Origin: Rhizobium sp. Q54
GTDB lineage: Bacteria; Pseudomonadota; Alphaproteobacteria; Rhizobiales; Xanthobacteraceae
DNA length: 64,000 bases
Direction of reading: 5' to 3'
Assembly: GCA_945907045.1 (NCBI GenBank)
Contig: CAMDSH010000002.1
Coordinates: 1-64,000, forward strand
Shown here: one piece after another, positions 49,990-64,000 of the stretch
Numbering within the stretch: position 1 is the first letter of the stretch
How the letters are laid out: each line of letters begins with the position of its first letter
Made by a program: the position numbers and the translations under genes
Notes under the pieces: model-generated
What the model was told of the DNA's origin: nothing
Seen by the model: only the letters and a program-made list of their open reading frames with translations
The model's database searches: none

Positions 49990-50667
49990 ATGCCGTATCC
50001 TTCACGCGACGCGCCGCAAGAACCGTCCCGGTTTCAAAACCAGGATGAAATCCTGCTTGGTCTTCTTTCGGCCGTTGATCGGGATTCTAAAATTTCGCAG
50101 CGAACGATATCTCGTGAACTCGGGGTAGCGCTCGGACTTGCCAACGCGTATTTGAAGCGCTGCGTGAGCAAGGGCTGGATCAAGATCCATGAGGTGCCTC
50201 GCCGCCGCTTTATTTATTATTTGACTCCTCAGGGTTTTGCCGAAAAGACACGTTTGGCCGGCCAATATTTCTCTGCGTCGTTCACTTTTTTCCGGCGCGC
50301 TCGACAGCAGATGTCGGACCTTATGGCGGAATGTGCAGCCAATGGCTGGCATCGAATTGTATTTGTAGGAGTTTCTGAGCTCGCGGAGGTCGGTACGCTC
50401 TGCGCTTACGACCATCCAATCAAGCTCGTAGCGATCATCGATCCTGTGCACATAGGAGAAAAGTTTTGTGGTCTCTCGGTGAAAACGACCCTCTCTCAAT
50501 GTGAACCTTACGATGCGGTAATCGTGACCAGTCTATCGACGCCCGAGAAAGTCTTTGAAGCGGTTAAAGCCGAGATTGGTTCTGATCGTGTCCTGGCTCC
50601 CAGACTGCTGCGGCTTGCATTGCCTCAATCGGACAAAAGTAGACCTTCGATTGAGGCGGCTGAATGA
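49990..50667 (+). CDS. Winged-helix (MarR-like) transcriptional regulator with C-terminal Rossmann-like domain
   Basis: A 225-residue protein. Residues about 18-85 are a winged helix-turn-helix (ISQRTISRELGVALGLANAYLKRCVSKGWIKIHE, then RRFIYYLTPQGF as wing), as in MarR-type EPS-associated regulators. Residues about 105-205 form an alternating strand-helix region (RIVFVGVSELAEVGTLCAY, KLVAIIDP, DAVIVTSL) that reads like a nucleotide- or CoA-binding Rossmann fold, reminiscent of Rex. It overlaps the NusG-like gene by four bases (ATGA). The operator copies and the NusG partner suggest it controls O-antigen or EPS genes. The effector is unknown. Confidence 0.75.
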   Translation: MPYPSRDAPQEPSRFQNQDEILLGLLSAVDRDSKISQRTISRELGVALGLANAYLKRCVSKGWIKIHEVPRRRFIYYLTPQGFAEKTRLAGQYFSASFTFFRRARQQMSDLMAECAANGWHRIVFVGVSELAEVGTLCAYDHPIKLVAIIDPVHIGEKFCGLSVKTTLSQCEPYDAVIVTSLSTPEKVFEAVKAEIGSDRVLAPRLLRLALPQSDKSRPSIEAAE

Positions 50668-51167
50668 AGCGTTGGTATGCAGCTTATACGCAGCCGCGTC
50701 ACGAAGGCTTGGCGACGGAGCACTTGGCGCGCCAGGGTTTCGAGGTCTATTTTCCACGCTATCTGAAGCGCCGCAGCCACGCTCGCAAGATTGAAATTGT
50801 TCCGGCCCCGTTATTCCCCCGATATGTCTTTGTCGCATTCGATGCAGGCGAGAGCGGCTGGCGCGTTATTCGGTCCACACGCGGAATCGTCGATCTGGTG
50901 CGTAACGGGCTCGATCCGATACCGGTTCTTGATCCGATCATTGAAGAGATCAGGGCGCGGCAGGACAACGAAGGGTTCGTTGTTCTCACGCGCCATCTCA
51001 AACTGGCGCGTGGCGCGCGCGTTCGCATCGAGGAAGGCCCGTTCGCTGCCTACGAGGCCATCTTCGAGTCCCAACGTGACAACGAGCGAGTAATTGCGCT
51101 GCTCTCGCTTCTTGGTCGCAAAGTAGTCGTCGACTTGCCGATTCGCGCGGTGGTTCCTGCGGATTGA
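50664..51167 (+). CDS. NusG/RfaH family transcription antitermination paralogue
   Basis: A 167-residue protein with an N-terminal NGN domain (RWYAAYTQPRHEGLATEHLA, then EVYFPRYLKRR and PLFPRYVFVAFD) and a C-terminal KOW-like segment (GARVRIEEGPFAAYEAIFE). It differs from the housekeeping NusG in its basic insert and short KOW. RfaH-type paralogues are loaded at an ops element in the leader of long polysaccharide operons. The overlap with the winged-helix gene suggests joint control. An ops-like sequence lies at 53055 in the next operon's leader. Confidence 0.85.
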   Translation: MKRWYAAYTQPRHEGLATEHLARQGFEVYFPRYLKRRSHARKIEIVPAPLFPRYVFVAFDAGESGWRVIRSTRGIVDLVRNGLDPIPVLDPIIEEIRARQDNEGFVVLTRHLKLARGARVRIEEGPFAAYEAIFESQRDNERVIALLSLLGRKVVVDLPIRAVVPAD

Positions 51168-53086: not shown

Positions 53087-54088
53087 GTGAAAGCATTGCG
53101 CGCGGGTGTCATAGGTCTCGGTGTGGGCGAAGCACACCTGCGGTCCTATCAGGCGATTGACGGTGTTGAGGTCGCAGCAATTTGCGACATCAACCCAACT
53201 CGCCTCGCCGAGATTGGCGATCGGTACGGGATTGGTGGCCGCCACGCGGACTACCGCGCCATCACCGAAGACTCCGAAATTGATGTCATCTCGATTTGCT
53301 CACATGACAATTTTCATACTGAGCAAATTTTGTCGGCGTTTCGAAATGGCAAACATGTAATGGTTGAAAAGCCGGTGGTCTTGCACCGGCGCGAGGCTGA
53401 AGAAGTCTACCGCGCCTTCGTGGATAGCAAATGTAAGATCACATCGAACCTAATTCTGCGCCAAAGCCCGCGCTTTTGTGAAATCAGGGACATGATTCGT
53501 GAAGGCGCGTTCGGAGATATCTTTTACTTGGAGGGTGATTATCTCCACCAAATATTGTGGAAGATCACCGAAGGCTGGCGCGGACAAATGGATTTCTACT
53601 GCACCTTTTATGGTGGCGGTATTCATCTTGTCGATTTAATGCGTTGGATGGTGGACGACGAATTCACCGAAGTTTCAGCAATGGCCAACGACATTCTGAC
53701 CCGCGGAACGGGTTATAAATATCCGGATTTTTTCGCTGCATTGATGCGCTTTCAGTCCGGAGCGATCGCAAAATGCGCAACGACTCTGGGCCCACAGCGC
53801 ACGAAATTTCACGCGCTCAATGTCTATGGCTCGAAACTGACATTTGTAAATGACATGCCCTCCGCAAAGCTGTTCTCCAGTGATCGCCCAGAAGATGAGC
53901 GCGCTGTGACGACTGCCTATCCGGGTATGGAAAAGGGCGATCTGTTGCCTGACTTCATCGATGCAATCCGCAAGGATCGTTTGCCGGAAGTCAACGAGAT
54001 CGACATCTTCCGAGTGATGGATGTTTGTTTCGCGGTTTGGGAATCCGCCCAAACGGGCCGTTCCATCAAAGTACAATATCTAGTCTGA
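53087..54088 (+). CDS. Gfo/Idh/MocA family oxidoreductase, WbpB-like
   Basis: A 333-residue NAD(P)-dependent sugar oxidoreductase. The N-terminal Rossmann motif is GVIGLGVGEAHLRSY, and the catalytic lysine is in VEKPVV, the family EKP motif, near residue 93. The C-terminal half has the alpha/beta fold of the substrate domain, with GGGIHLVDLMRWM carrying a catalytic-like His/Asp pair. It starts with GTG 20 bases after the ops-like element. A WbpB-type role would be oxidation at C3 of a UDP-uronic acid or 2-acetamido sugar, to prepare the amination by the next enzyme. Confidence 0.8.
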   Translation: MKALRAGVIGLGVGEAHLRSYQAIDGVEVAAICDINPTRLAEIGDRYGIGGRHADYRAITEDSEIDVISICSHDNFHTEQILSAFRNGKHVMVEKPVVLHRREAEEVYRAFVDSKCKITSNLILRQSPRFCEIRDMIREGAFGDIFYLEGDYLHQILWKITEGWRGQMDFYCTFYGGGIHLVDLMRWMVDDEFTEVSAMANDILTRGTGYKYPDFFAALMRFQSGAIAKCATTLGPQRTKFHALNVYGSKLTFVNDMPSAKLFSSDRPEDERAVTTAYPGMEKGDLLPDFIDAIRKDRLPEVNEIDIFRVMDVCFAVWESAQTGRSIKVQYLV

Positions 54089-54092
54089 AACC

Positions 54093-55247
54093 GTGCACGC
54101 GATCCGTACAATTCCTTTTGGCCGGCCGATGTTAGGCGATACCGAAAAACGCCTTGTGGCAGAGGTGCTCGACGGCTTTGTGCTGACACACGGTCCGCGT
54201 TGCACCGAATTCGAACAGCGGTTTGCCGAGCGGATCGGTGTCCGGCATGCGGTGACGGTATCCTCATGCACGACCGGGCTGCAGCTCTCACTAATGACGA
54301 TCGGGCTCAAGCCCGGGGATGAAGTGCTGGTGCCGGCTGAAACGCATGTTGCGACGGGCCACGTCGTTGAGCATGCTGGCGGCCGTCCGGTCTTCGTTGA
54401 TGTTGGGCGTGCCACTGGGAATATCGATGCGGTGAAGGCCGCAGCCGCGGTGACCGGCCGAACCCGAGCTATCATTCCGGTGCACTATCTGGGACTTCCT
54501 TGCGAAATGGAGACCTTGCACGCGCTCGCCGAGCGCCACAGCCTGGCGATTATCGAAGATTGCGCGCTCGCACTTGGAGCATCCTATGATGGTCGGCATC
54601 CGGGGGCGTTCGGAACGACGGGATCATTTTCGTTCTATCCTGCCAAGCATATTACGACGCTTGAGGGCGGTATGGTGACGACTAACGACGACGCCATTGC
54701 CGCGCGTCTGCGCAACCTGCGCGCTTTCGGCTACGATAAGAGTCTAGGTGAGCGAAAAATTCCCGGCATTTACGACGTCGTAGCGCTCGGCCATAATTTT
54801 CGAATGTCGGAGGTTCAGGCCGCCGTCGGCATTGGCCAACTTGAGCAACTTGATAGCTTTCTTGCTGTGCGCAGGCGCAATACGAAAATTCTCCTCGATG
54901 GACTTTCCAGTTTGAATGGAATCACAACATTCCCCATCAAACATGGCAAAGCGGAATCGGCTTGTTATTGTGTCAACATCGTCTTGCCGGAAGACGGACG
55001 TATCGATCGAAACAAAATGATCGTCAAACTGAACGCTGCCGGTGTGGGCACCAGCGTCCACTATCCGGTGCCGGTTCCTCTGATGACGTACTATCGTGAC
55101 AAGTACGGCTATCGCGATGGCAACTTTCCGGTTGCGGAATGGATCAGTGGGCAGGCGATTTCGCTGCCGGTTGGCCCTCACGTCTCGGTGGACGACGCTG
55201 AATTTATTGTCGCGATGGTTCGGCAGATCGTATCTGAACTGAGCTAG
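54093..55247 (+). CDS. DegT/DnrJ/EryC1 family sugar aminotransferase, WbpE-like
   Basis: A 384-residue PLP-dependent aminotransferase. The PLP lysine is in SFYPAKHITTLEGG, with the Asp region in IIEDCALALGASY and the C-terminal substrate region YPVPVPLMTYYRDKY. It would place an amino group on the keto-sugar made by the preceding oxidoreductase, as WbpE does on the 3-keto sugar of the P. aeruginosa O5 pathway. The GTG start lies four bases after the previous stop. Its tail ends nineteen bases before the epimerase gene. Confidence 0.85.
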   Translation: MHAIRTIPFGRPMLGDTEKRLVAEVLDGFVLTHGPRCTEFEQRFAERIGVRHAVTVSSCTTGLQLSLMTIGLKPGDEVLVPAETHVATGHVVEHAGGRPVFVDVGRATGNIDAVKAAAAVTGRTRAIIPVHYLGLPCEMETLHALAERHSLAIIEDCALALGASYDGRHPGAFGTTGSFSFYPAKHITTLEGGMVTTNDDAIAARLRNLRAFGYDKSLGERKIPGIYDVVALGHNFRMSEVQAAVGIGQLEQLDSFLAVRRRNTKILLDGLSSLNGITTFPIKHGKAESACYCVNIVLPEDGRIDRNKMIVKLNAAGVGTSVHYPVPVPLMTYYRDKYGYRDGNFPVAEWISGQAISLPVGPHVSVDDAEFIVAMVRQIVSELS

Positions 55248-55266
55248 AAGGAAGCGACTGATAAGC

Positions 55267-56343
55267 ATGAACGAGTCATCGCAGATCTCCTACAATACCG
55301 TCAGTCTTGCCGGCCAGAGGGTCATGCTTGTCGGCGGAGCAGGCTTCATCGGTCATCACCTGGCGCTTGAATGCCGCCGCATGGGCGCGGAGGTGTTGGT
55401 TGTTGATAACATGCAGATCAATAACATCGTAAAAATCGTCAGCGACAGAATGATCGGTGATCTACAGCGGCGGCTCTACACCAACTTTCTACTCGACCGT
55501 TTCTCGTTGATGCGAGAAGCGAATATCTCGATCGAGAACGTCGATGCGCGGCAAATGGCGGAACTTACCAATTCGTTCAACGAATTCCAGCCGACGAAGG
55601 CGGTTCATCTGGCGGCGATCTCAAGCGCTGTAACGGCCAATCAAATGCCCGGTCTTGCTTACGATCTGCAGATCACGACTCTCCGGAACTTGCTTGAATT
55701 GTGTCGATTGAAAAACTCAAGTTGCAATCATGTCGCGTTCATGTCGTCGAGTACGGTGTACGGCGACTTTGAAGGGGACTCAGTCGACGAGACAATCTAC
55801 CCGCGGCCGCGTGGCGTTTACGCCAACGGCAAGTACATCGGCGAACGCATGGTACGAGAGGCCAAAGAACTTTACGGCATCGACTTCACGATCGTGCGGC
55901 CAAGCGCGCTCTATGGCATCCGTTGCGTCTCGGGCCGTGTGACCCAGAAATTCATCGAGAACGCACTCATGGGCAAGCCTCTATTGCTCGAAGGCGGCGG
56001 CAGCGGCAGGCTCGATTTCACCAATGTTGACGATCTGGTCGAGGGCATCGTGCGCGCGTTGGCGCTTGAGGGCGGCCGATCGCGCACCTTCAACATCACC
56101 TACGGAAGTGCGCGTACCATTGCGGATCTTGCCGCGATCATTAAGGAGATCATACCGGGCGCGAAATTGGAGGAGCGACCGCCAGCCCCTGAGAAGCCCA
56201 AACGCGGTACCCTCGAAATGAGCCGGGCGCGGGAATTCCTTGGCTTCTTGCCCAGTCGGGGGCTCGACATCGCTTACCGCGAATATTGTCAGTGGTATGT
56301 GGAGCAGTGGCGGCGTTCCGAAGGCCGTTCGAACCTATTGTGA
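55267..56343 (+). CDS. NAD-dependent epimerase/dehydratase of the SDR family
   Basis: A 358-residue extended SDR protein. It has the N-terminal VMLVGGAGFIGHHLALECRRMGAE, the SSSTVYG catalytic region and the YxxxK pair in VYANGKYIGERM. A 4-epimerase or dehydratase acting on the nucleotide sugar of this pathway is likely, but the substrate is unknown. AAGGA upstream supports the ATG at 55267. Its stop overlaps the start of the GNAT gene (GTGA). Confidence 0.8.
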   Translation: MNESSQISYNTVSLAGQRVMLVGGAGFIGHHLALECRRMGAEVLVVDNMQINNIVKIVSDRMIGDLQRRLYTNFLLDRFSLMREANISIENVDARQMAELTNSFNEFQPTKAVHLAAISSAVTANQMPGLAYDLQITTLRNLLELCRLKNSSCNHVAFMSSSTVYGDFEGDSVDETIYPRPRGVYANGKYIGERMVREAKELYGIDFTIVRPSALYGIRCVSGRVTQKFIENALMGKPLLLEGGGSGRLDFTNVDDLVEGIVRALALEGGRSRTFNITYGSARTIADLAAIIKEIIPGAKLEERPPAPEKPKRGTLEMSRAREFLGFLPSRGLDIAYREYCQWYVEQWRRSEGRSNLL

Positions 56344-57176
56344 GAGTGCGTCATGCCAGTGAAGCCGACGCTGCTTTACTCGCGCCGCATGGTCTCGGTA
56401 GCGGCAATGGGGCAGTCATTGTGCTTGAGCGCGAAGGGGCCGTGATTGCTGGGCTGTCGGTTGCGCCACGGCCATTCGAGAGTGAGATTCTGGGACAGCG
56501 AATCGCTCATATCGAAACAATAGCGACGTGGGAAAAGAATGTTTCTATCGTCGCTCTTATTGAGGGCAGCCTGGATCTTCTCGCCAGCGAGGGCTATCGG
56601 TTTGTTTCTACCCGTCACAATGAAACCAACCGGCGCATTCTTGCTGCGTTGCAGACTGTTGGTTTTCGGGTGATTGAATGTCTTCTCACTTTGGATCGTC
56701 CTTTCGATGTGGGCACCCCCACGATGCCTACGAATGTCAGGATCGCTGAAAAAGCCGATGTGGAAGGCTGCGCCGCGATCGCCGGTCACACTTTCCGCTT
56801 CGACCGGTTTCACGCCGATCCGGAGATTGATGACGATCTTGCTGATAAACTCAAGGTGCAGTGGGCGCGAAATTCCGTGCTGGGCCGGGCCGATGTTGTG
56901 TTTGTGACATACGACCAAGAAAAGATCACCGGCTTCAATGCATGTCTTGTGTGCAACGACTCTGTGATTATCGATCTCATCGGCGTTGCGCCGGAACAAC
57001 AGGGAAGGGGACTTGGCCGCGCGCTGACGACAGCGGCGCTTGCCCATTATGCCGGTAAGGCCACGCGAATGCTCGTTGGCACCCAGTCCTGCAACGTTGC
57101 CTCGCTCGCGCTCTATCAAAGCATGGGTTTTCGCATCGCAGCTTCGGCACTCACATTGCACGCACATCTGCCATGA
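56340..57176 (+). CDS. GNAT acyltransferase with two GNAT-like domains
   Basis: A 278-residue protein. The C-terminal half is a typical GNAT domain with the acyl-CoA loop VAPEQQGRGLGRAL and the YQSMGF element. The N-terminal half repeats the pattern in weaker form (NRRILAALQTVGF parallels NVASLALYQSMGF). I chose GTG at 56340, which overlaps the epimerase stop (GTGA); an earlier in-frame start would lie inside that gene. It probably acylates the amino group made by the DegT-type enzyme, as WecD-type proteins do. Its ATGA overlap with the next gene shows co-translation. Confidence 0.78.
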   Translation: MRVRHASEADAALLAPHGLGSGNGAVIVLEREGAVIAGLSVAPRPFESEILGQRIAHIETIATWEKNVSIVALIEGSLDLLASEGYRFVSTRHNETNRRILAALQTVGFRVIECLLTLDRPFDVGTPTMPTNVRIAEKADVEGCAAIAGHTFRFDRFHADPEIDDDLADKLKVQWARNSVLGRADVVFVTYDQEKITGFNACLVCNDSVIIDLIGVAPEQQGRGLGRALTTAALAHYAGKATRMLVGTQSCNVASLALYQSMGFRIAASALTLHAHLP

Positions 57177-57727
57177 TCGTCATTGTCATCCCAGCCAAAG
57201 GCGCGTCAAACCGCTTGCCGAACAAAAATATGGTAGCAATAAACGGACGGCCCATGATCGACTATGCAGTCGATGAAGCCTTGGCCAGCAAACGGGCTGA
57301 GGCTGTCTATGTTTCGACCGACAGCGATGCGATTGCAAAGCATGCCGCTTCGCGTGACGTGCAAGTGATCCGTCGGCCGGTCTCGCTCGGCGGTGAGGTG
57401 CCAATCATTAACGTTTACCAGCACGCACTCGCAAATATGCCAAGCGGCGAAAAGGTAACCGTCGTGGTGGGCCTGCAGCCTGATCACCCTGATCGTGACG
57501 TGACCATCGATGAAGCAATCGCGGTCTTTGAACGCGAGAATGCTGATGTGCTGAACAGCACCGACGCGAACGGCACTAAAAACGGCGCGCATTATGTATT
57601 GTCGCGTCATTTCGTGGATACTGGCGAGGCGCGACGGAAGATCGCCATCATCGACGATTCCACAAATATACACGTTGCCGCGGATCTCGGTCGAGCCGGC
57701 GAACGCCTCGCTGCTCGCAGAAAATGA
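57173..57727 (+). CDS. Short CMP-sugar synthetase-like (NeuA/KdsB-type) cytidylyltransferase
   Basis: A 184-residue protein of the acylneuraminate/Kdo cytidylyltransferase fold, about 40 residues shorter than usual. The nucleotide-binding start IPAKGASNRLPNKNM is modified from PARGGSKRIPRKN. VYVSTDSDAIAKHA and QPDHPDRD keep the family core, and the C-terminus IHVAADLGRAGERLA corresponds to the family's terminal IDTEEDLELA. The shortening is thus internal, in the sugar-acid pocket, not an end truncation. It would make a CMP-linked acid; the substrate is unknown. It overlaps both neighbours by four bases. Confidence 0.72.
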   Translation: MIVIVIPAKGASNRLPNKNMVAINGRPMIDYAVDEALASKRAEAVYVSTDSDAIAKHAASRDVQVIRRPVSLGGEVPIINVYQHALANMPSGEKVTVVVGLQPDHPDRDVTIDEAIAVFERENADVLNSTDANGTKNGAHYVLSRHFVDTGEARRKIAIIDDSTNIHVAADLGRAGERLAARRK

Positions 57728-58701
57728 CCTTCACGATCGTCAATACACTGGATCTTTCGAAGGCGCCCGAAGCAATCGCGTCGCTGGAAGCCGTGGGTAA
57801 TCTGATCTCCCTGCCTCCCCAACGCGGCAAAGTACTTGAGGCAATGGCACAGGCCGACGCATATCTTGCCAGCGCCAGTATCGTGGTCGACGAGGAGTTT
57901 CTCGATGCGGCACCGAGGCTGAAACTTATCGGCTCGCCGTCGACCGGAACGGATCACATGAACCTTACCGCAATCGACAAGCGCAGCATCGTACGCTTCG
58001 ATATCTCGCGCGAACGTGATCTGATCAACAGTTTCACCGCGACCGCGGAACTCGCTTTCGGTCTGATGCTGTCCGTAAATCGGAAGTTGAAACCAGCCTT
58101 CGCTGCTGCGGAGCGGGGCGATTGGGCACGTGAGCGGTTCACGGGCTTCCAATTTCACGGCAAAACGCTTGGCATTCTTGGTCTTGGTCGTCTCGGTTGT
58201 ATCAGTGCCCGCATCGGCCAAGGCTTTGGGATGAAGGTGATTGCGAACGACCTGCGCAAAGTCGAAGCGCCTGGCGTGAGCATGGTTGATTTCGACACGC
58301 TATTGCGCCAATCCGATGTGCTGACCATCCATGTGCATCTCACGCCTGCCACGGAAGGTTTGTTCGACGAGCGCGTTTTCTTGCGTATGAAGCCGAATTC
58401 AATCGTCATAAATACCAGCCGTGGTCGCATCGTCGATGAGATCGCATTGCTCAAGGCATTGGAGACAGGCCTCATCGCGGGGGCCGGGCTTGATGTCATT
58501 GACGGCGAGTGGCTCACCGACGAGGAACGGGCCCTACATCCATTGATCGCTTTTGCTCGTGCACACCCCAATCTTGTGATCACACCGCACATTGCAGGGG
58601 CGACGATCGAATCGATTTACGGCGCGCGCGTGTTCATGGCGCACAAGATGGCGGAGTGGTTGCGCACGCAACAGGCGTCAACGGAAGCTGCGCGGGGTTA
58701 G
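57724..58701 (+). CDS. D-isomer-specific 2-hydroxyacid dehydrogenase family protein
   Basis: A 325-residue NAD-dependent dehydrogenase. The NAD-binding GILGLGRLGCISARIGQG is at about residues 150-167, INTSRGRIVDE carries the catalytic Arg, VIDGEW the Glu, and TPHIAGAT the His. It therefore looks catalytically complete, related to phosphoglycerate and glyoxylate reductases. Inside a nucleotide-sugar operon, with ATGA overlap to the cytidylyltransferase, it may reduce or oxidise the 2-keto or 2-hydroxy acid that the cytidylyltransferase activates. This is unlike the usual nonulosonic acid routes, which have no such enzyme. Confidence 0.78.
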   Translation: MTFTIVNTLDLSKAPEAIASLEAVGNLISLPPQRGKVLEAMAQADAYLASASIVVDEEFLDAAPRLKLIGSPSTGTDHMNLTAIDKRSIVRFDISRERDLINSFTATAELAFGLMLSVNRKLKPAFAAAERGDWARERFTGFQFHGKTLGILGLGRLGCISARIGQGFGMKVIANDLRKVEAPGVSMVDFDTLLRQSDVLTIHVHLTPATEGLFDERVFLRMKPNSIVINTSRGRIVDEIALLKALETGLIAGAGLDVIDGEWLTDEERALHPLIAFARAHPNLVITPHIAGATIESIYGARVFMAHKMAEWLRTQQASTEAARG

Positions 58702-58706
58702 GCGGC

Positions 58707-59339
58707 ATGCGTGTGGCATTGGTTGAATACGGCATCGGCAACGTGCTCTCAGTTGCAAATGCGCTGACGCGAGCAGGTGTCACGCCTGTAGTTGTGCGCG
58801 ATGGGGACGAGCTCACGGCGCTCGATGCGTCTTGCGTTGTGATGCCAGGCGTTGGTGCTGTCGGCGAAGCTTTGTTGCTGCTTCGTCAGCGCGGCCTCGA
58901 TGTCGCATTGCAGGCGCTGGTTGTGGATCGCGGTGTCCCGTTCCTGGGAATTTGCGTCGGTATGCAGGTGATGGCCGAGACCTGCGAAGAGTTTGGGGAA
59001 CACCGCGGCCTTGGCTGGATTCCGGGTCGCGTACGCCGACTGGCGCCGGAGGGCTCTTCATTACGGCTACCGCATGTTGGGTGGAACACCATTTCATTGC
59101 GCGATGACGGCGACTTCCTTACCGGGCTCGACGGCGAGCACTTTTATTTTGTGCATTCGTTCGTGATGGAGTGCCCGGATGAGTATGTGGTTGCGACAGC
59201 AAATTACGGTCATCCATTCGTTGCGGCAGTGTGTCATGGGCGCCTGATGGGTGTCCAATTTCATCCCGAAAAAAGCTCGCAAGCGGGCGCGGTTCTGCTA
59301 AGCGAGTTTCTCACGCGCGCAGCACCGATCGCGGCATAA
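58707..59339 (+). CDS. hisH: HisH-type glutamine amidotransferase paralogue of the amidino-sugar operon
   Basis: A 210-residue class I glutaminase. The nucleophile Cys83 lies in GICVGMQ, and the His-Glu pair is in GVQFHPEKSS near residue 193. It supplies ammonia to the partner HisF-like and WbpG-like proteins, not to histidine synthesis, as its gene is in a polysaccharide operon and the partner HisF has lost a catalytic residue. I chose ATG 58707 (MRVALVEYGIG); an upstream extension would be inside the dehydrogenase gene. It begins five bases after that gene. Confidence 0.87.
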   Translation: MRVALVEYGIGNVLSVANALTRAGVTPVVVRDGDELTALDASCVVMPGVGAVGEALLLLRQRGLDVALQALVVDRGVPFLGICVGMQVMAETCEEFGEHRGLGWIPGRVRRLAPEGSSLRLPHVGWNTISLRDDGDFLTGLDGEHFYFVHSFVMECPDEYVVATANYGHPFVAAVCHGRLMGVQFHPEKSSQAGAVLLSEFLTRAAPIAA

Positions 59340-59349
59340 GACGGCTCAC

Positions 59350-60162
59350 ATGCTAAAGCGACGCTTAGTTCCGGTATTGTATTTGCTCGACGGCTGGATG
59401 GTCCGTAGCCAGGAATTTCAGGAACATCAATATATTGGTGACCCGGTTCTGCACGTTGAACGAATGATTGATTGGGATGTTGACGAGTTGATCGTGCTCG
59501 ACATCGGCCGCGGCGAAATGACCTTCGAGCATCATAGACAAGATTATCGGCATAAACCGGTACTTACGTTGTTCGACTTCATCCAGCGGATCGCGGTGGA
59601 ATGCCGCATTCCACTGACTTTCGGCGGGCGTATCCGTACAATCGAGGACATCCGCACGCGCATTCAGAACGGCGCCGACAAGGTCAGTGTCAACACCATA
59701 TTGGCGGATTCGCCTCAGACAGTGACGCAAGCGGCTCGGATGTTTGGCAGTCAGGCCATTGTCGCTAGCGTCGATTTTCGCCGCGTTGAAGGGACCTCTC
59801 GCGTGTACCTTCGCCACGGACGTGAGGACTCCGGCGTTGTCCCGGCCAAATGGGCGCGCCGCGCGCAAGACCTGGGAGCGGGTGAGATTTTACTGAATGC
59901 CATCGATCGGGACGGAATCGCGCAGGGGTATGATCTTGAAGAGATTCGAAAAGTGGTGGACGCCGTGACAATTCCCGTAATCGCTTGCGGTGGTGCTGGC
60001 CATCAAAAGCATTTTCAGCAATGTTTGAATGACACTGACGCCAACGCTGTGGCCGCCGGAAATATATTTCATTTCACAGAAAACGCATATCCGCGGGCCA
60101 AAAAATTTCTGACTCAGGCTCGAAGCGATATCCGCCCGCTAACGGAAAACAGACCGGCATGA
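59350..60162 (+). CDS. hisF: HisF-like cyclase-fold subunit with altered catalytic site
   Basis: A 270-residue (beta/alpha)8 barrel of the HisF family. The usual PCLDVKDGRVV at the first strand reads PVLYLLDGWMV, so the catalytic Asp11 is replaced by Tyr. The second catalytic Asp is kept in IVASVDFRR. The loss agrees with paralogues paired with WbpG, which act as ammonia channel and not as imidazole-glycerol-phosphate cyclases. It lies ten bases after hisH and 58 before the WbpG-like gene. An eight-base inverted repeat GAGAATTT/AAATTCTC (60164-60213) spans most of that gap. Confidence 0.85.
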   Translation: MLKRRLVPVLYLLDGWMVRSQEFQEHQYIGDPVLHVERMIDWDVDELIVLDIGRGEMTFEHHRQDYRHKPVLTLFDFIQRIAVECRIPLTFGGRIRTIEDIRTRIQNGADKVSVNTILADSPQTVTQAARMFGSQAIVASVDFRRVEGTSRVYLRHGREDSGVVPAKWARRAQDLGAGEILLNAIDRDGIAQGYDLEEIRKVVDAVTIPVIACGGAGHQKHFQQCLNDTDANAVAAGNIFHFTENAYPRAKKFLTQARSDIRPLTENRPA

Positions 60163-60220
60163 AGAGAATTTCTGGTCGCTCCGTTTTCTTTGTGGTGCGG
60201 GCGCTAAATTCTCATTTACA

Positions 60221-61378
60221 ATGACCAAGCTTGATCTCCCTCCAATTAAGTGGTGTGTGCGCTGCGTGTACCCGTCGAGCTCGGCGGTGCCACTGAAGTT
60301 TGATGAGCACGGAGTGTGTAGCGGTTGCCGTGTTCACGATCAGAAGAAGCGCATTGATTGGGACGAAAGGTTAAAATGGCTACGCGAAGAAGTTGAGCCA
60401 TACCGCAAATCGTCCGGCTACGAATGCGTGATCGGCGTATCCGGCGGTAAGGACAGTTACTACCAGGCTCATTTCGTCAAAGAAAAACTCGGTCTCAAAC
60501 CGCTACTCGTCACATACAACGGAAACAATTATCTCGACGTTGGCTGGCGCAATATGCTGCGGATGAAAGAAGTATTCGGCGTCGACCACATCATCATCTC
60601 GCCGTCGGTCGATATGCTTATTCGCATTAACCGGCTTGGATTTCGCAAAACCGGCGACATGAATTGGCACGCACATGCCGGGATATTCACGCAACCGATG
60701 AAGATAGCGGCGCAGTTCAATATTCCTTTGGTCTTCTGGGGCGAGCATGGGTTTACCGATGTCGGCGGCATGCTGTCCATGAATGACTTCCCTGAGTTCA
60801 CATACCGCTATCGGAAAGATCAAGGTTTGCGCGGTTACGACTGGTGGGACTTTACCAACGACGCGGAAGATCCAATTCAGGAAAATGAACTTGAGTGTTA
60901 CAAATACCCGAATGATGAATTGATCGAAAAGATCGGGCTACGCGGATTATTTATCGGCAATTTTGACGCCTGGGATGCCAATGCGCACACAAGGCTAATA
61001 ACGGAAAAATACAAATGGGAACCTTCGCCCACTCCCTTCGAGCGAACCTATCGACGGATGTCAAACCTTGATGACCGTTACGAGAACGGCGCGCACGATT
61101 ATCTCAAATACGTGAAGTTCGGTTATGGCCGAGCTACCGATCATGCGAGCAAAGATATCCGCTCCGGCTATATGAAACGTGAGGAGGGTGTCGAGATGGT
61201 ACGTCAATACGACCACGTACGCTCGTCCGATATTAATTTCTGGCTCGACTATGTTGGGCGTCGAGAGGAATGGTTCGACGCGATCACCGACACTTTTCGC
61301 AGCGCCAAAGTCTGGACAAAACATGACGACGGCAGTTGGCGTAAGCGGAATATTTGGGACAGCGCTGTCCCAGCGTAA
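60221..61378 (+). CDS. wbpG: N-acetyl sugar amidotransferase, WbpG/PseA family
   Basis: A 385-residue ATP-PPase amidotransferase. Paired cysteines C12/C15 and C33/C36 (WCVRC, CSGC) form a probable zinc knuckle, and the PP-loop is SGGKDS at residues 74-79. The family converts an N-acetyl group of a nucleotide or CMP sugar to an acetamidino group, using ammonia from HisH and HisF, as in P. aeruginosa O5 (WbpG) and Campylobacter PseA. It ends the coupled part of the operon, 23 bases before a methyltransferase gene. It is the strongest evidence that the repeat unit contains an amidine. Confidence 0.88.
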   Translation: MTKLDLPPIKWCVRCVYPSSSAVPLKFDEHGVCSGCRVHDQKKRIDWDERLKWLREEVEPYRKSSGYECVIGVSGGKDSYYQAHFVKEKLGLKPLLVTYNGNNYLDVGWRNMLRMKEVFGVDHIIISPSVDMLIRINRLGFRKTGDMNWHAHAGIFTQPMKIAAQFNIPLVFWGEHGFTDVGGMLSMNDFPEFTYRYRKDQGLRGYDWWDFTNDAEDPIQENELECYKYPNDELIEKIGLRGLFIGNFDAWDANAHTRLITEKYKWEPSPTPFERTYRRMSNLDDRYENGAHDYLKYVKFGYGRATDHASKDIRSGYMKREEGVEMVRQYDHVRSSDINFWLDYVGRREEWFDAITDTFRSAKVWTKHDDGSWRKRNIWDSAVPA

Positions 61379-61401: not shown

Positions 61402-62391
61402 ATGAAAGTTGATGATATCCGTCCAGCTTCTGTGCTGGTCGGCCAACGGGCTGCCATGCAGGCGGACATCGATTGGCTGGCCAAGCGTCAGGCCGCATTC
61501 GTCATCGTGAATTGTCCGGCTTGCGCTGCTAAGGATTTCGAAAATCTTTATGAAAAATATTGTATGCAACAGGTTCGCTGCCGCGAATGCGAGACGCAGT
61601 TCATCAATCCGCGGCCGAGCGAAGAAATCTTAGCGGCATTTTACGCGCAGTCCGCGAACTACGCGTATTGGGCGCGGAATATTTTTCCTGCAAGCAAGGA
61701 AGCTCGCCGAGAAAAGATATTTCAACCGCGCGCCGCGTATGCCGCAGGTTTGGTCCGCAAAGCCGGAATTCGGAATGGTGTACTGGTTGAAGTTGGTGCG
61801 GCCTATGGACAATTTTGCAGTGAGGTTGTCAAGACTGGTGTGTTTTCACGAGTGATTGCGATTGAGCCAACTCCTGATCTTGCAGGAGTTTGTCGAGGGC
61901 TAGGCATTGAAGTTCTGGAGTCCCCTTATGAGTCAGTGCTATTTGATACGCCGGTCGACTTCATCGCCAGCTTCGAAGTTATTGAGCATCTGTTTGATCC
62001 GGGGGCCTTCATGGCCTGGTGCCATGATGCGTTGCGGCCAGGCGGTATGGTCCTGCTGACATGCCCAAATATTGCAGGATTTGAAACTCTCCTGCTCGGC
62101 CGGGCCTCAGGGGCGGTCGATCACGAGCACATGAATCTCTTCACGCCCCAATCGCTCGCTCAACTCGCCGAGCGATGTGGCTTTATCGAGATTGAAGTCA
62201 CGACTCCAGGCGAATTGGACGTTGATCTCGTCCAACGGGCCTTGAAGGCGGGTGAAATTGGCAAAACGGATTTGGGCCCCTTGGTCATTCGTCTGGTCGA
62301 GGGAGCTAACCCCAAGCATCTTCAATCGCTAATTCAAGAGGCGAGTCTGTCATCAAACATGCGCATGATCGCCCGCAAACCGAAGAGTTAG
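61402..62391 (+). CDS. Class I SAM-dependent methyltransferase with zinc ribbon
   Basis: A 329-residue methyltransferase with an N-terminal zinc ribbon (C38-x2-C41 in CPAC and C60-x2-C63 in CREC) and the SAM motif LVEVGAAYGQFCSEV near residue 130. DFIASFEVIEHLFDPG is motif II, and PGGMVLLTCPNIAGFE follows. Members of this family (Methyltransf_23 with putative zinc-binding domain) methylate sugars in surface polysaccharides. It lies 23 bases after the amidotransferase gene and eight before the next, so it may be part of the same transcript. Confidence 0.82.
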   Translation: MKVDDIRPASVLVGQRAAMQADIDWLAKRQAAFVIVNCPACAAKDFENLYEKYCMQQVRCRECETQFINPRPSEEILAAFYAQSANYAYWARNIFPASKEARREKIFQPRAAYAAGLVRKAGIRNGVLVEVGAAYGQFCSEVVKTGVFSRVIAIEPTPDLAGVCRGLGIEVLESPYESVLFDTPVDFIASFEVIEHLFDPGAFMAWCHDALRPGGMVLLTCPNIAGFETLLLGRASGAVDHEHMNLFTPQSLAQLAERCGFIEIEVTTPGELDVDLVQRALKAGEIGKTDLGPLVIRLVEGANPKHLQSLIQEASLSSNMRMIARKPKS

Positions 62392-62399
62392 AAGTTTTC

Positions 62400-63593
62400 A
62401 TGCGCCGGCGTCAAATCGTTGTGTTTCTGAACAACAAGCTGATCACCTGCGATACAATTGTGCCATTGATGATTGAGCTTGCGGCAAAGCGTCCAAGCCT
62501 TGCTGTTGAATTCGCCGTTTTTGAGGAAAATACACATGATGTGATTCAGCGAAATACCGTTTTGCTCGGTGCGATCAATTCAGTCGGAAGACTCGTATTT
62601 CGCGGCCGAAGGATTTCCGCCCGTCAGAGCCTCCTACAACTTACAATTCACCGCGTTCGTTCGATCCTTTGGTTGTTGGGTCTTCTCGTTCGTGCGCTTG
62701 CCGGGTGGGTGTCCCTCGTGCATTTTAAATCACTCAATCAATGGCCGCTCCGCGCCGTCGGAATGTTGGCATCTCAACACACATTCTTCTTCGAGCCATC
62801 AGCTATTGGGTACGCGCCGCTTGAAAAACGCGCATCCGAACTGATGAAAATGCGCAAATATGACAACCGGCGGCCTGTGGGCAAATACTTGGTCGGTTTC
62901 AGCAAATATTGGCCGCCATTCACTGACGTGCGTTTGAAGAACACGATCAAGAAACGGTTGCCGCCGCCGTTTACGTCGCGATACTGGATAAAGTATCTGG
63001 ACGAACGCAGACTAGGCGATCTCGCAAGCTGCTTCGAGGCTGCAGGTATTCCGAAATCGGAAAGTCTTGTCCTCTATATCTTGGCTTGGATGGGTCCAAC
63101 CGGCCTTCTGCGCGAGCGCGACCTGTTCCCGAAGCTATATGAGGAAACACTTCAAGTGCTGGCTGAAACTTGCCCGCAATTGCCTATTTTCATAAAGCCG
63201 CATCCAGCAATGCGCGCCGACGAACGGCGTTGGGTCATGGAGAGGGCACTCAGTTACCAGGGATTGCAGGTTGTGGTCACGGATCTGCACCCAATGCTGC
63301 TCGCGCAATCCGCCAAGTTTGCAATCGGTAACTGCTACAGCACCGCATTTTCTTCGATCCATTATTTGGGTGTTCCCACGATTGAGTACACTAACTATTC
63401 TGAACGAATCCTTCAGGAGACCAATGGTGGATCGATGCGCCCTGAGTATGTCACCCAATTTATCAGTCGGAATCCCAACGAATTGCGTCTGGCCGTTCAC
63501 AAGTACGTTCAGAACGATTCTCCAAGAATGCCTGTTTTCCAGGATGTCTTGGACGATCCTGAATTGATTTCAGCTTTAGCTGGTTCGGCTTAA
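62400..63593 (+). CDS. Putative GT-B-like capsule/O-antigen transferase
   Basis: A 397-residue protein with no certain family. The region IFIKPHPAMRADERRW and a following FAIGNCYSTAFSSIHYLGVPTIEY are like the KPHP and SSxxxExxxxGxP motifs of GT-B transferases related to polysialyltransferase and CDP-glycerol glycerophosphotransferase. One hydrophobic stretch (IHRVRSILWLLGLLVRALAGW) near residue 90 may anchor it to the membrane. A CMP-linked donor made by the preceding operon would suit such a protein, but this is an inference. It lies eight bases after the methyltransferase gene. Confidence 0.6.
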   Translation: MRRRQIVVFLNNKLITCDTIVPLMIELAAKRPSLAVEFAVFEENTHDVIQRNTVLLGAINSVGRLVFRGRRISARQSLLQLTIHRVRSILWLLGLLVRALAGWVSLVHFKSLNQWPLRAVGMLASQHTFFFEPSAIGYAPLEKRASELMKMRKYDNRRPVGKYLVGFSKYWPPFTDVRLKNTIKKRLPPPFTSRYWIKYLDERRLGDLASCFEAAGIPKSESLVLYILAWMGPTGLLRERDLFPKLYEETLQVLAETCPQLPIFIKPHPAMRADERRWVMERALSYQGLQVVVTDLHPMLLAQSAKFAIGNCYSTAFSSIHYLGVPTIEYTNYSERILQETNGGSMRPEYVTQFISRNPNELRLAVHKYVQNDSPRMPVFQDVLDDPELISALAGSA

Positions 63594-63626: not shown

Positions 63627-64000
63627 ATGGAAAAACGCGCAGTGACGGCCGCCGCAAAGTATCTTAAAACCGTAAGGTCATTTGACGACGAGAGCTATTG
63701 GCCTCTCATTATGTTCTGCAATACGAATATTTTTATGTGGCACATCGATGCATTCCAGCATGCCGGCGATCCAGTGTCGGCATTCGTCGAACAATTTGAA
63801 CGGGCGGAGGTATTTTTGCGAGCCGCATCGGCTTCGCGGATTGCCCGCGAACATTTTCCGGTTCGCGCTATCGGCGAACGACCAAATTCAAGCGAGAGCT
63901 TCATCTCGACGATGTTCAGTGATGTCTGGCTGGCGCTGTCGGACGACGTTTATTTTGATGAGACGCACAACTTCATCGTTGAGCGATTCGCTCGCAATGG
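63627..64000 (+). CDS. Hypothetical protein, C-terminally truncated by window end
   Basis: An open frame of 124 codons from ATG 63627 to the window edge with no stop. The translation begins MEKRAVTAAAKYLKTVRSFD and includes YWPLIMFCNTNIFMWHI and YFDETHNFIVERFARNG. The YFDETHNF-type pattern near the end vaguely recalls putative sugar O-methyltransferases, where a similar segment precedes the SAM domain, but I cannot be sure. It follows the GT-B-like gene by 33 bases on the same strand and is probably part of the same cluster. A competing frame on the other strand (63695-63904) looks like a shadow. Confidence 0.45.
   Translation, partial: MEKRAVTAAAKYLKTVRSFDDESYWPLIMFCNTNIFMWHIDAFQHAGDPVSAFVEQFERAEVFLRAASASRIAREHFPVRAIGERPNSSESFISTMFSDVWLALSDDVYFDETHNFIVERFARN

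Follow-up and report, generated by a model that had tools for sequence, protein, structure and literature searches.

A miniature cytidylyltransferase with a D-2-hydroxyacid dehydrogenase and a phosphoenolpyruvate-condensing synthase: a conserved partnership seen from a nine-gene cassette of Rhizobium sp. Q54

Here, we analysed the first 64,000 positions (1-64000, the window) of contig CAMDSH010000002.1 (C2) from the 3.3-Mb genome of Rhizobium sp. Q54, which comprises 74 contigs. The window carries a cassette of nine genes, all found on the + strand between 53087 and 61378 and assigned by Pfam and NCBIfam to the families that an earlier note on this DNA had named. Two of them, a short cytidylyltransferase (CMPT_s) and a D-2-hydroxyacid dehydrogenase, lie side by side. 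The new element is a conserved partnership: a miniature synthetase of the cytidine monophosphate (CMP)-ulosonate type, a distinct hydroxyacid dehydrogenase and a synthase that condenses phosphoenolpyruvate (PEP). This three-enzyme partnership spans Alphaproteobacteria, one picocyanobacterium and viral contigs of IMG/VR. The cassette genes are:

53087..54088, +, Gfo/Idh/MocA dehydrogenase (WbpB-like fold family), 333 amino acids (aa); Pfam GFO_IDH_MocA
54093..55247, +, DegT-family sugar aminotransferase, 384 aa; Pfam DegT, 386 bits
55267..56343, +, extended short-chain dehydrogenase/reductase (SDR), GalE-like epimerase/reductase, 358 aa; Pfam Epimerase
56340..57176, +, WecD-like GNAT N-acyltransferase, likely start GTG 56340; Pfam GNAT, WecD-like profile
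57173..57727, +, short cytidylyltransferase CMPT_s, 184 aa; CTP_transf_3, motifs LQPDHPDRD and TNIH
57724..58701, +, D-2-hydroxyacid dehydrogenase of the CMPT-linked group, 325 aa; Pfam 2-Hacid_dh_C
58707..59339, +, HisH-type glutaminase subunit, probably for sugar amidination; TIGR01855, 203 bits (cut-off 105)
59350..60162, +, HisF-like subunit, nearest to the WbuZ/AglZ type; WbuZ, 238 bits (cut-off 300)
60221..61378, +, WbpG/WbuX N-acetyl sugar amidotransferase; TIGR03573, 314.7 bits (cut-off 203.2)

The tight coupling noted earlier is real, as 4-base overlaps are possible at three junctions: SDR/GNAT (GTG 56340), GNAT/CMPT_s (57173) and CMPT_s/dehydrogenase (57724). The most likely start of HisH is ATG 58707, 5 bases past the dehydrogenase; the open reading frame (ORF) given from position 58509 carries a false N-terminus. 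The presumed 'tandem GNAT' had to be given up: it is one ORF with a single Pfam GNAT stretch, and the WecD-like profile match extends further upstream.

CMPT_s has 184 aa and falls 44-67 residues short of the NeuA chains identified by sequence (228-251 aa); a second cytidylyltransferase of the same locus has 242 aa. The segment absent relative to NeuA is presumably the dimerisation and sugar-binding region. Across 12 aligned sequences (the window gene, L038, L039, Synechococcus sp. AG-679-A04 and eight of the 11 full-length IMG/VR loci), the motif LQPDHPD, the start IPxK..S.R...KN and the end T-x-IH...DL are invariant. The end reads TNIH or TDIH where NeuA has an IDID-like motif, which we take to be metal-binding and altered in CMPT_s. 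Being conserved across phyla, CMPT_s is unlikely to be a pseudogene or decayed copy, and at sequence level the motifs retained in this alignment speak against the inactive gene that the earlier note had reckoned with. The AlphaFold2 (AF2) model (mean pLDDT 94.4, pTM 0.90) finds its best matches in the Protein Data Bank (PDB) among CMP-sialate synthetases (6ifd, 1eyr; TMq 0.83-0.85), followed by CMP-Kdn, CMP-Kdo and CMP-Pse synthetases and, lower, by MobA, 3-phosphoglycerate guanylyltransferase and IspD. CMPT_s belongs to a compact family whose modelled fold is that of CMP-sialate synthetases.

Members of the CMPT_s family were found in Alphaproteobacteria, in Synechococcus (a marine cyanobacterium) and on 11 IMG/VR contigs; a scan of an 84,980-species collection yielded four loci. 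Searched alone and class-wide, CMPT_s matched 44 of 385 genomes at 1e-10, mostly through N-terminal matches to cytidylyltransferases of the ordinary kind; of the matches listed, none but its own gene and a contig-edge fragment in genome G307 extends beyond query residue 156. The exact DNA pattern for QPDHPDRD occurred in one of the 385 class genomes, this one. A plasmid search returned eight records, none covering 80% of CMPT_s, and phage records held no match to viral CMPT_s. We did not use the count from a phylum search with an alignment including a full-size cytidylyltransferase (CMPT), which was unspecific (68 of 398 genomes).

Partners of CMPT_s were counted in 16 short-CMPT loci, with L041 (a Sphingobium contig-edge fragment) and L085-L089 (ordinary cytidylyltransferases, included in the initial 16 IMG/VR loci) excluded. 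A dehydrogenase lies no more than 2.5 kb from CMPT_s in 14 of the 16 loci, all except L083 and L084; it directly abuts CMPT_s in 13 of these, and in L082 one ORF comes in between. A PEP-condensing synthase of the NeuB or 3-deoxy-D-arabino-heptulosonate 7-phosphate (DAHP)-synthase type also accompanies CMPT_s in 14 of 16 (13 within 2.5 kb, and L105), and such a gene is missing beside CMPT_s of the window and of L038. These counts represent loci and not independent events, because several rows are near-copies. Near full-size CMPTs (28 loci from L009-L037, the short-family fragment L016 set aside), a dehydrogenase was found in two and NeuB in 12, a contrast that is not perfectly matched, as flanks of about 1.5 kb stand against 2.5 kb for the short-CMPT loci. 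The two full-size exceptions read NeuB-NeuC-dehydrogenase-CMPT (L107) and NeuB-dehydrogenase-CMPT (L108); an SDR 57% like the cassette SDR lies about 8 kb from the L107 run (genome G001).

The arrangement varies between loci. Synechococcus AG-679-A04 (L040) has the order family-2 glycosyltransferase (GT2), dehydrogenase, CMPT_s, DAHP-synthase-type enzyme. On the IMG/VR contigs, L074 reads dehydrogenase, CMPT_s, one gene, DAHP-synthase type, GT2, and L075 and L081 read dehydrogenase, CMPT_s, NeuB type (265-275 aa), GT2 (in L075 the GT2 by similarity only). Fusions occur as well: in L083 (9302-10537) a DAHP-synthase-type gene precedes a 411-aa ORF in which GT2 is fused to CMPT_s, and in L084 (7555-9933) a NeuB-type domain, fused to a part that by eye resembles UDP-galactopyranose mutase, stands ahead of CMPT_s. 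In the stretch examined of an Azospirillum plasmid region, a CMPT is annotated but no dehydrogenase of the CMPT-linked kind. The literature searched, as far as its texts were available, described the dehydrogenase-CMPT pair nowhere except in one sentence on Leptospira (PMC4758666); the available parts of PMC8397731, PMC3438082, PMC7387560 and PMC6303947 held nothing relevant on it. The earlier suggestion that the partnership of cytidylyltransferase and hydroxyacid dehydrogenase is unusual agrees with these excerpts.

Is the dehydrogenase itself special? A maximum-likelihood tree places 12 CMPT-linked dehydrogenases (ten next to short and two next to full-size CMPTs, with five of the nine viral dehydrogenases among them) apart from all eight other strong PF02826 proteins of the genome; the separating branch has support 97/93 and is present in 97% of bootstrap trees. 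As long branches and uneven composition were flagged and the outgroup consists of own-genome paralogues only, the tree indicates a distinct dehydrogenase group here and not a proven clade. R233, E262 and H289, presumably the catalytic Arg-Glu-His, and G153/G155/G158, which we take to be the glycine-rich NAD motif, are invariant in 11 sequences. At 1e-60, the dehydrogenase was found in one of 297 order-level genomes, this one; 42 phage records with generic dehydrogenase matches were not used. Tree, conserved residues and partnership tie the dehydrogenase to CMP-ulosonate synthesis, not to a particular reaction.

The close association of the two enzymes could also be read differently, with CMPT_s activating a small hydroxy-acid or phosphate supplied by the dehydrogenase, such as a glycerate or lactate derivative, in a route unrelated to ulosonates. 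The 14 of 16 loci with a neighbouring dehydrogenase, the shortened CMPT_s and the appearance of 3-phosphoglycerate guanylyltransferase (7p97) at rank 49 of the fold search fit this idea, but the structures of NeuA, KdsB and CMP-Pse synthetase outrank 7p97 and PEP-condensing synthases accompany CMPT_s in 14 of 16 loci; we regard this reading as highly improbable.

Three more alphaproteobacterial genomes carry most of the cassette, in part with the order changed or with the genes spread over several contigs. Comparison with these genomes includes three genes that follow WbpG in the window:

61402..62391, +, S-adenosylmethionine-dependent methyltransferase; Pfam Methyltransf_23, same order in L038 (55%)
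62400..63593, +, 397-aa protein, putative, possibly a glycosyltransferase; no Pfam match, same order in L038 (40%)
63627..64000 (ends at 64673, past the window), +, first methyltransferase of a tandem pair, 348 aa; Methyltransf_11

Cassette-gene identities in the three relatives amount to 48-83%, with 44-52% for one detached amidation set. In the Hyphomicrobiales metagenome-assembled genome (MAG) SZUA-148 (G1001, locus L038) we found the SDR (77%), CMPT_s (74%), dehydrogenase (71%), HisH, HisF (72%) and WbpG (83%), followed by the counterparts of the first two downstream genes given above. Between HisF and WbpG, L038:4430-7649 holds a KedN5-like B12 radical-SAM gene (160 bits, cut-off 700) and a 385-aa ORF without Pfam match. 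The Rhodospirillaceae MAG SI072_bin169 (G1002, L039/L105) keeps the order Gfo (69%), one inserted gene, DegT (63%), SDR (68%), GNAT (48%), CMPT_s (59%), dehydrogenase (67%), a methyltransferase (61% to the 63627 gene), NeuB, an ABC-transporter-like gene, PseB and PseC; its HisH-HisF-WbpG set (44-52%; WbpG 52%) lies on a different contig. In G307, one contig carries WbpG (73%) directly upstream of Gfo (68-69%) and DegT (65%); a second one has the last part of CMPT_s together with the dehydrogenase (66%), a methyltransferase (59%) and NeuB. With WbpG adjoining Gfo-DegT in G307, and with the linkage in the window and L038, three of the four genomes link the amidation genes to the core. Judged from these sequence comparisons, the recurrence of cassette genes in three other genomes is more than chance.

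PF03102 detected one NeuB each in G307, G1001 and G1002. In G307 and L105, NeuB is the second gene past the dehydrogenase, after the methyltransferase that is 59-61% like the 63627 gene; these two NeuBs are 89% alike and 34-40% identical to the NeuBs of the present genome, and the NeuB of G1001 is a 59% counterpart of the third NeuB here. An AF2 model of the 397-aa protein, built without an alignment, was unusable (pLDDT 39.6). Upstream of the cassette, by eye, a + strand run at 49990-51167 holds a winged-helix regulator-like ORF and then a NusG/RfaH-like 167-aa ORF, possibly an operon-specific antiterminator.

The earlier note had reported the window as free of neuB and neuC. Within the 64 kb, PF03102 indeed found no NeuB, but three NeuB genes (68665-69729, 73996-75084 and 94810-95838, all by PF03102) and one NeuC (75081-76286) lie downstream on C2. 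These genes belong to sets resembling those for legionaminic acid (Leg) and pseudaminic acid (Pse), which lie 4.7-35 kb beyond the window end (the NeuBs 4.7-32 kb):

68.7-79 kb, Leg-like set: NeuB, CBS-nucleotidyltransferase, 242-aa cytidylyltransferase, SDR, LegC-like aminotransferase, NeuD-like protein, then second NeuB, NeuC, HisF-like, HisH-like (by similarity) and WbpG
82.5-85.3 kb, third HisF-HisH-WbpG set
89.7-99.5 kb, Pse-like set: PseB, PseG-like protein, PseC, third NeuB, cytidylyltransferase-aminomutase-like fusion

NeuC, PseB, PseC and the WbuX proteins score above their NCBIfam cut-offs; the NeuB, LegC-like, NeuD-like and PseG-like proteins score below, and 'Leg-like' and 'Pse-like' are therefore labels, not proven products. 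By a rough count, the locus has three NeuB and three CTP_transf_3 genes. The 242-aa CMPT of the Leg-like set reaches 120 bits to PseF, and the cytidylyltransferase domain of the Pse-like set 106 bits to PF02348. Elsewhere in the genome PF02348 gave a strong match on C1, taken to be the enzyme for 3-deoxy-D-manno-oct-2-ulosonic acid (Kdo), and a further, weak match of 23 bits on C44.

Two further ORFs of this region caught our attention. The Pse-like fusion (C2:97435-99492, L005:17435-19492) joins a cytidylyltransferase domain, SpsF-like by eye, to a domain resembling glutamate-1-semialdehyde aminomutase, with relatives in G1001 (71%) and in Synechococcus G1003 (36%). Inside the polysaccharide locus, a 716-aa ORF (C2:87499-89649, L005:7499-9649) combines a pyruvate kinase region (residues 6-327) with an ATP sulfurylase region (340-710), and C2:65708 carries an adenosine 5'-phosphosulfate kinase gene; the ORF may be a fusion that activates sulfate at the expense of PEP for a sulfated glycan.

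With such sets nearby, the locus might be an ordinary Leg or Pse locus, in which CMPT_s serves as CMP-nonulosonate synthetase and the remaining genes decorate Leg or Pse; its resemblance to PseF (56 bits for the window gene and 64 bits for L105, cut-off 206), seen over the N-terminal half only, points the same way, as do the three NeuBs on the contig. We consider this unlikely. The Leg-like set owns its 242-aa CMPT, which makes the nine-gene cassette additional, and the Pse-like set has its fused cytidylyltransferase domain; the shortness of CMPT_s and its TNIH/TDIH end also set it apart, and to our knowledge a D-2-hydroxyacid dehydrogenase is not part of known Leg or Pse pathways. The earlier note had held that a NeuB/NeuC-type synthase just outside the window would turn the cassette into a normal Leg or Pse route; the genes are there, but the separate CMPT of the Leg-like set speaks against the normal route. 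Nor do these genes, together with the NeuBs close behind the dehydrogenase in G307 and L105, support a route free of NeuB.

The enzymes around CMPT_s and the dehydrogenase point to the building and amidination of a sugar. At E<=1e-18, the PDB offers no relative of the Gfo/Idh/MocA protein. Among proteins of solved structure, the aminotransferase scores higher with ArnB and perosamine synthases (225-207 bits, ArnB 225) than with WbpE (167-164 bits), at odds with the close kinship to WbpE of Pseudomonas aeruginosa O5 assumed before; with the transaminase of the 8-amino-3,8-dideoxy-D-manno-octulosonate (Kdo8N) pathway it scores 151 bits. The SDR reaches 83 bits to dTDP-glucose 4,6-dehydratase (cut-off 365) and 52 bits to LegB (cut-off 475). 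By eye, its motif SSSTVYG is present and the TDE motif absent; we take the former to be GalE-like and the latter to mark dehydratases. WbpG has no Pfam match, yet lies above the TIGR03573 cut-off, with PDB 8wex at 1e-39. The HisF-like protein scores 219 bits to AglZ/HisF2 and 210 bits to HisF, below its WbuZ score; a separate hisF above its family cut-off (352 bits) on contig C27 indicates that the HisH/HisF pair of the cassette is not the histidine enzyme. The cassette hence contains an acetamidino trio, with WbuX/WbpG over its cut-off beside HisH- and HisF-type subunits distinct from the histidine genes. Such sets occur three times within 26 kb of the contig (window 59350-61378; L004:16273-18962; L005:2477-5285), which suggests several amidinated sugars in one glycan; the WbpG of L038 is 83% identical to the first WbpG of this genome and 31-34% to the other two.

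What, then, would the cassette make? We propose, with a probability of roughly one half, that it is a variant nonulosonate-type pathway whose product is a CMP-activated, amidinated and possibly methylated 3-deoxy-2-ulosonate. Gene content, conservation, the modelled fold and the recurrent dehydrogenase/CMPT_s/PEP-synthase partnership were computed; from these we infer the substrate and product, the sequence of steps, what the dehydrogenase does and which of the genome's NeuBs works with the cassette. Gfo, DegT, SDR and GNAT would yield an aminated, N-acylated sugar, and a PEP-condensing synthase, here any of the three downstream NeuBs, would convert an aldose into a 3-deoxy-2-ulosonate, which CMPT_s would activate with CMP. 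WbpG-HisH-HisF would turn an N-acetyl into an N-acetamidino group with ammonia from glutamine, and the downstream methyltransferases may O-methylate the sugar acid before it enters a surface polysaccharide. The dehydrogenase would act on a carboxylate-bearing intermediate adjoining the CMP step; as the glycosyl donor would be lost if the keto acid itself were reduced, candidate targets are another part of such an intermediate, a precursor or an N-acyl building block. The CMP-activated acetamidino acid already suspected in the earlier note would be the most economical product.

Several observations weigh against this proposal. The cassette contains no NeuB, and among its nine genes Pfam and NCBIfam recognised neither a 4,6-dehydratase nor NeuC/PseG. 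If Gfo-DegT aminate C3 of a hexose, this position becomes C6 of the nonulosonate, which carries the ring-closing oxygen, a misfit with a normal pyranose. L038 leaves no space for GNAT between SDR and CMPT_s, and its contig ends about 0.4 kb upstream of the SDR. The sole NeuB found in G1001, a MAG in which genes are possibly missing, lies on another contig, within a Pse-like module that has a cytidylyltransferase domain of its own; this disfavours a strict one-to-one pairing of NeuB and CMPT. CMPT_s manages without a dehydrogenase in L083 and L084, and L075/L076, L079/L080 and G307/G1002 are near-copies. Finally, the Synechococcus and viral stretches carry the dehydrogenase-CMPT_s-synthase set without close Gfo, DegT or WbpG relatives nearby.

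This last point favours the main rival, in which two pathways share one operon: Gfo/DegT/SDR/GNAT and HisH-HisF-WbpG would make a UDP-linked acetamidino sugar, by a route presumably of the P. aeruginosa O5 type, and CMPT_s, dehydrogenase and NeuB a separate CMP-ulosonate. The nearest other cassette relatives in those stretches are a 27% Gfo-like match about 8 kb off (L081) and a 65-residue DegT-like match (L084), and the Synechococcus genome has no WbpG match. Conversely, a Sphingomonas exopolysaccharide (EPS) locus lists Gfo, aminotransferase, acetyltransferase, SDR and WbuX/HisF/HisH, and 'cytidylyl' occurs zero times in the text (PMC11340318). As both sets occur alone elsewhere, two pathways could share an operon; but in the window 4-base overlaps pack the six core genes tightly, their order is retained in L105 with one insertion, and WbpG adjoins or sits among core genes in three genomes. 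We rate two pathways as somewhat unlikely and favour a single variant nonulosonate-type pathway.

On a more tentative note, at slightly less than even odds, the loci would together define a class of dehydrogenase-dependent CMP-3-deoxy-2-ulosonates, made with a miniature CMP-synthetase and interchangeable NeuB or DAHP-synthase-type enzymes in Alphaproteobacteria, picocyanobacteria and phages, and here also amidinated and methylated. If true, bacterial surface chemistry would gain a new class of activated sugar acids and the recurrent unexplained dehydrogenase beside CMP-sugar genes a function. It would also suggest that this donor chemistry is found in some phages too, which perhaps use it to remodel host surfaces.

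How does the cassette compare with known systems? The acetamidino mannuronate pathway of P. aeruginosa O5 comprises WbpA/B/E/D/I with WbpG-HisH2-HisF2, WbpD being a left-handed-helix acetyltransferase. The cassette shares with it a Gfo dehydrogenase, a DegT aminotransferase and WbuX/WbpG with HisH/HisF-like subunits, but has a GNAT in place of the left-handed-helix acetyltransferase and an aminotransferase nearer to ArnB than to WbpE, and adds SDR, CMPT_s and dehydrogenase. The WbpA 6-dehydrogenase and the WbpI 2-epimerase were not found among the nine genes; a UDP-sugar-dehydrogenase-like ORF lies at C2:105093, by eye only. The match to WbpB/E/G-HisH-HisF of P. aeruginosa O5 proposed earlier holds for the amidation trio, but not for the WbpE subfamily. 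Cluster B for EPS in Sphingomonas has an MviM-family dehydrogenase, an aminotransferase dependent on pyridoxal phosphate (PLP), an acetyltransferase, SDR, WbuX, HisF2 and HisH, a gene set shared with the cassette; the genes listed in the available part of that source include neither a cytidylyltransferase nor a D-2-hydroxyacid dehydrogenase, and the acetyltransferase is of the WxcM type (PMC11340318). With Leg and Pse pathways the cassette has in common a PLP aminotransferase, a GNAT, an amidotransferase, the modelled CMP-sugar-synthetase fold and, in relatives, the NeuB partner; it differs in its short CMPT, D-2-hydroxyacid dehydrogenase and Gfo and in lacking a recognised 4,6-dehydratase and NeuC/PseG. 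The cassette works like a nonulosonate pathway, membership being unproven. The Kdo8N pathway, finally, consists of the aminotransferase KdnA, the dehydrogenase KdnB and a CMP-Kdo8N synthetase. Its dehydrogenase presumably belongs to a different family, and the cassette DegT is closer to ArnB than to its transaminase, but both systems share the logic of combining a dehydrogenase, an aminotransferase and a cytidylyltransferase on a ulosonate.

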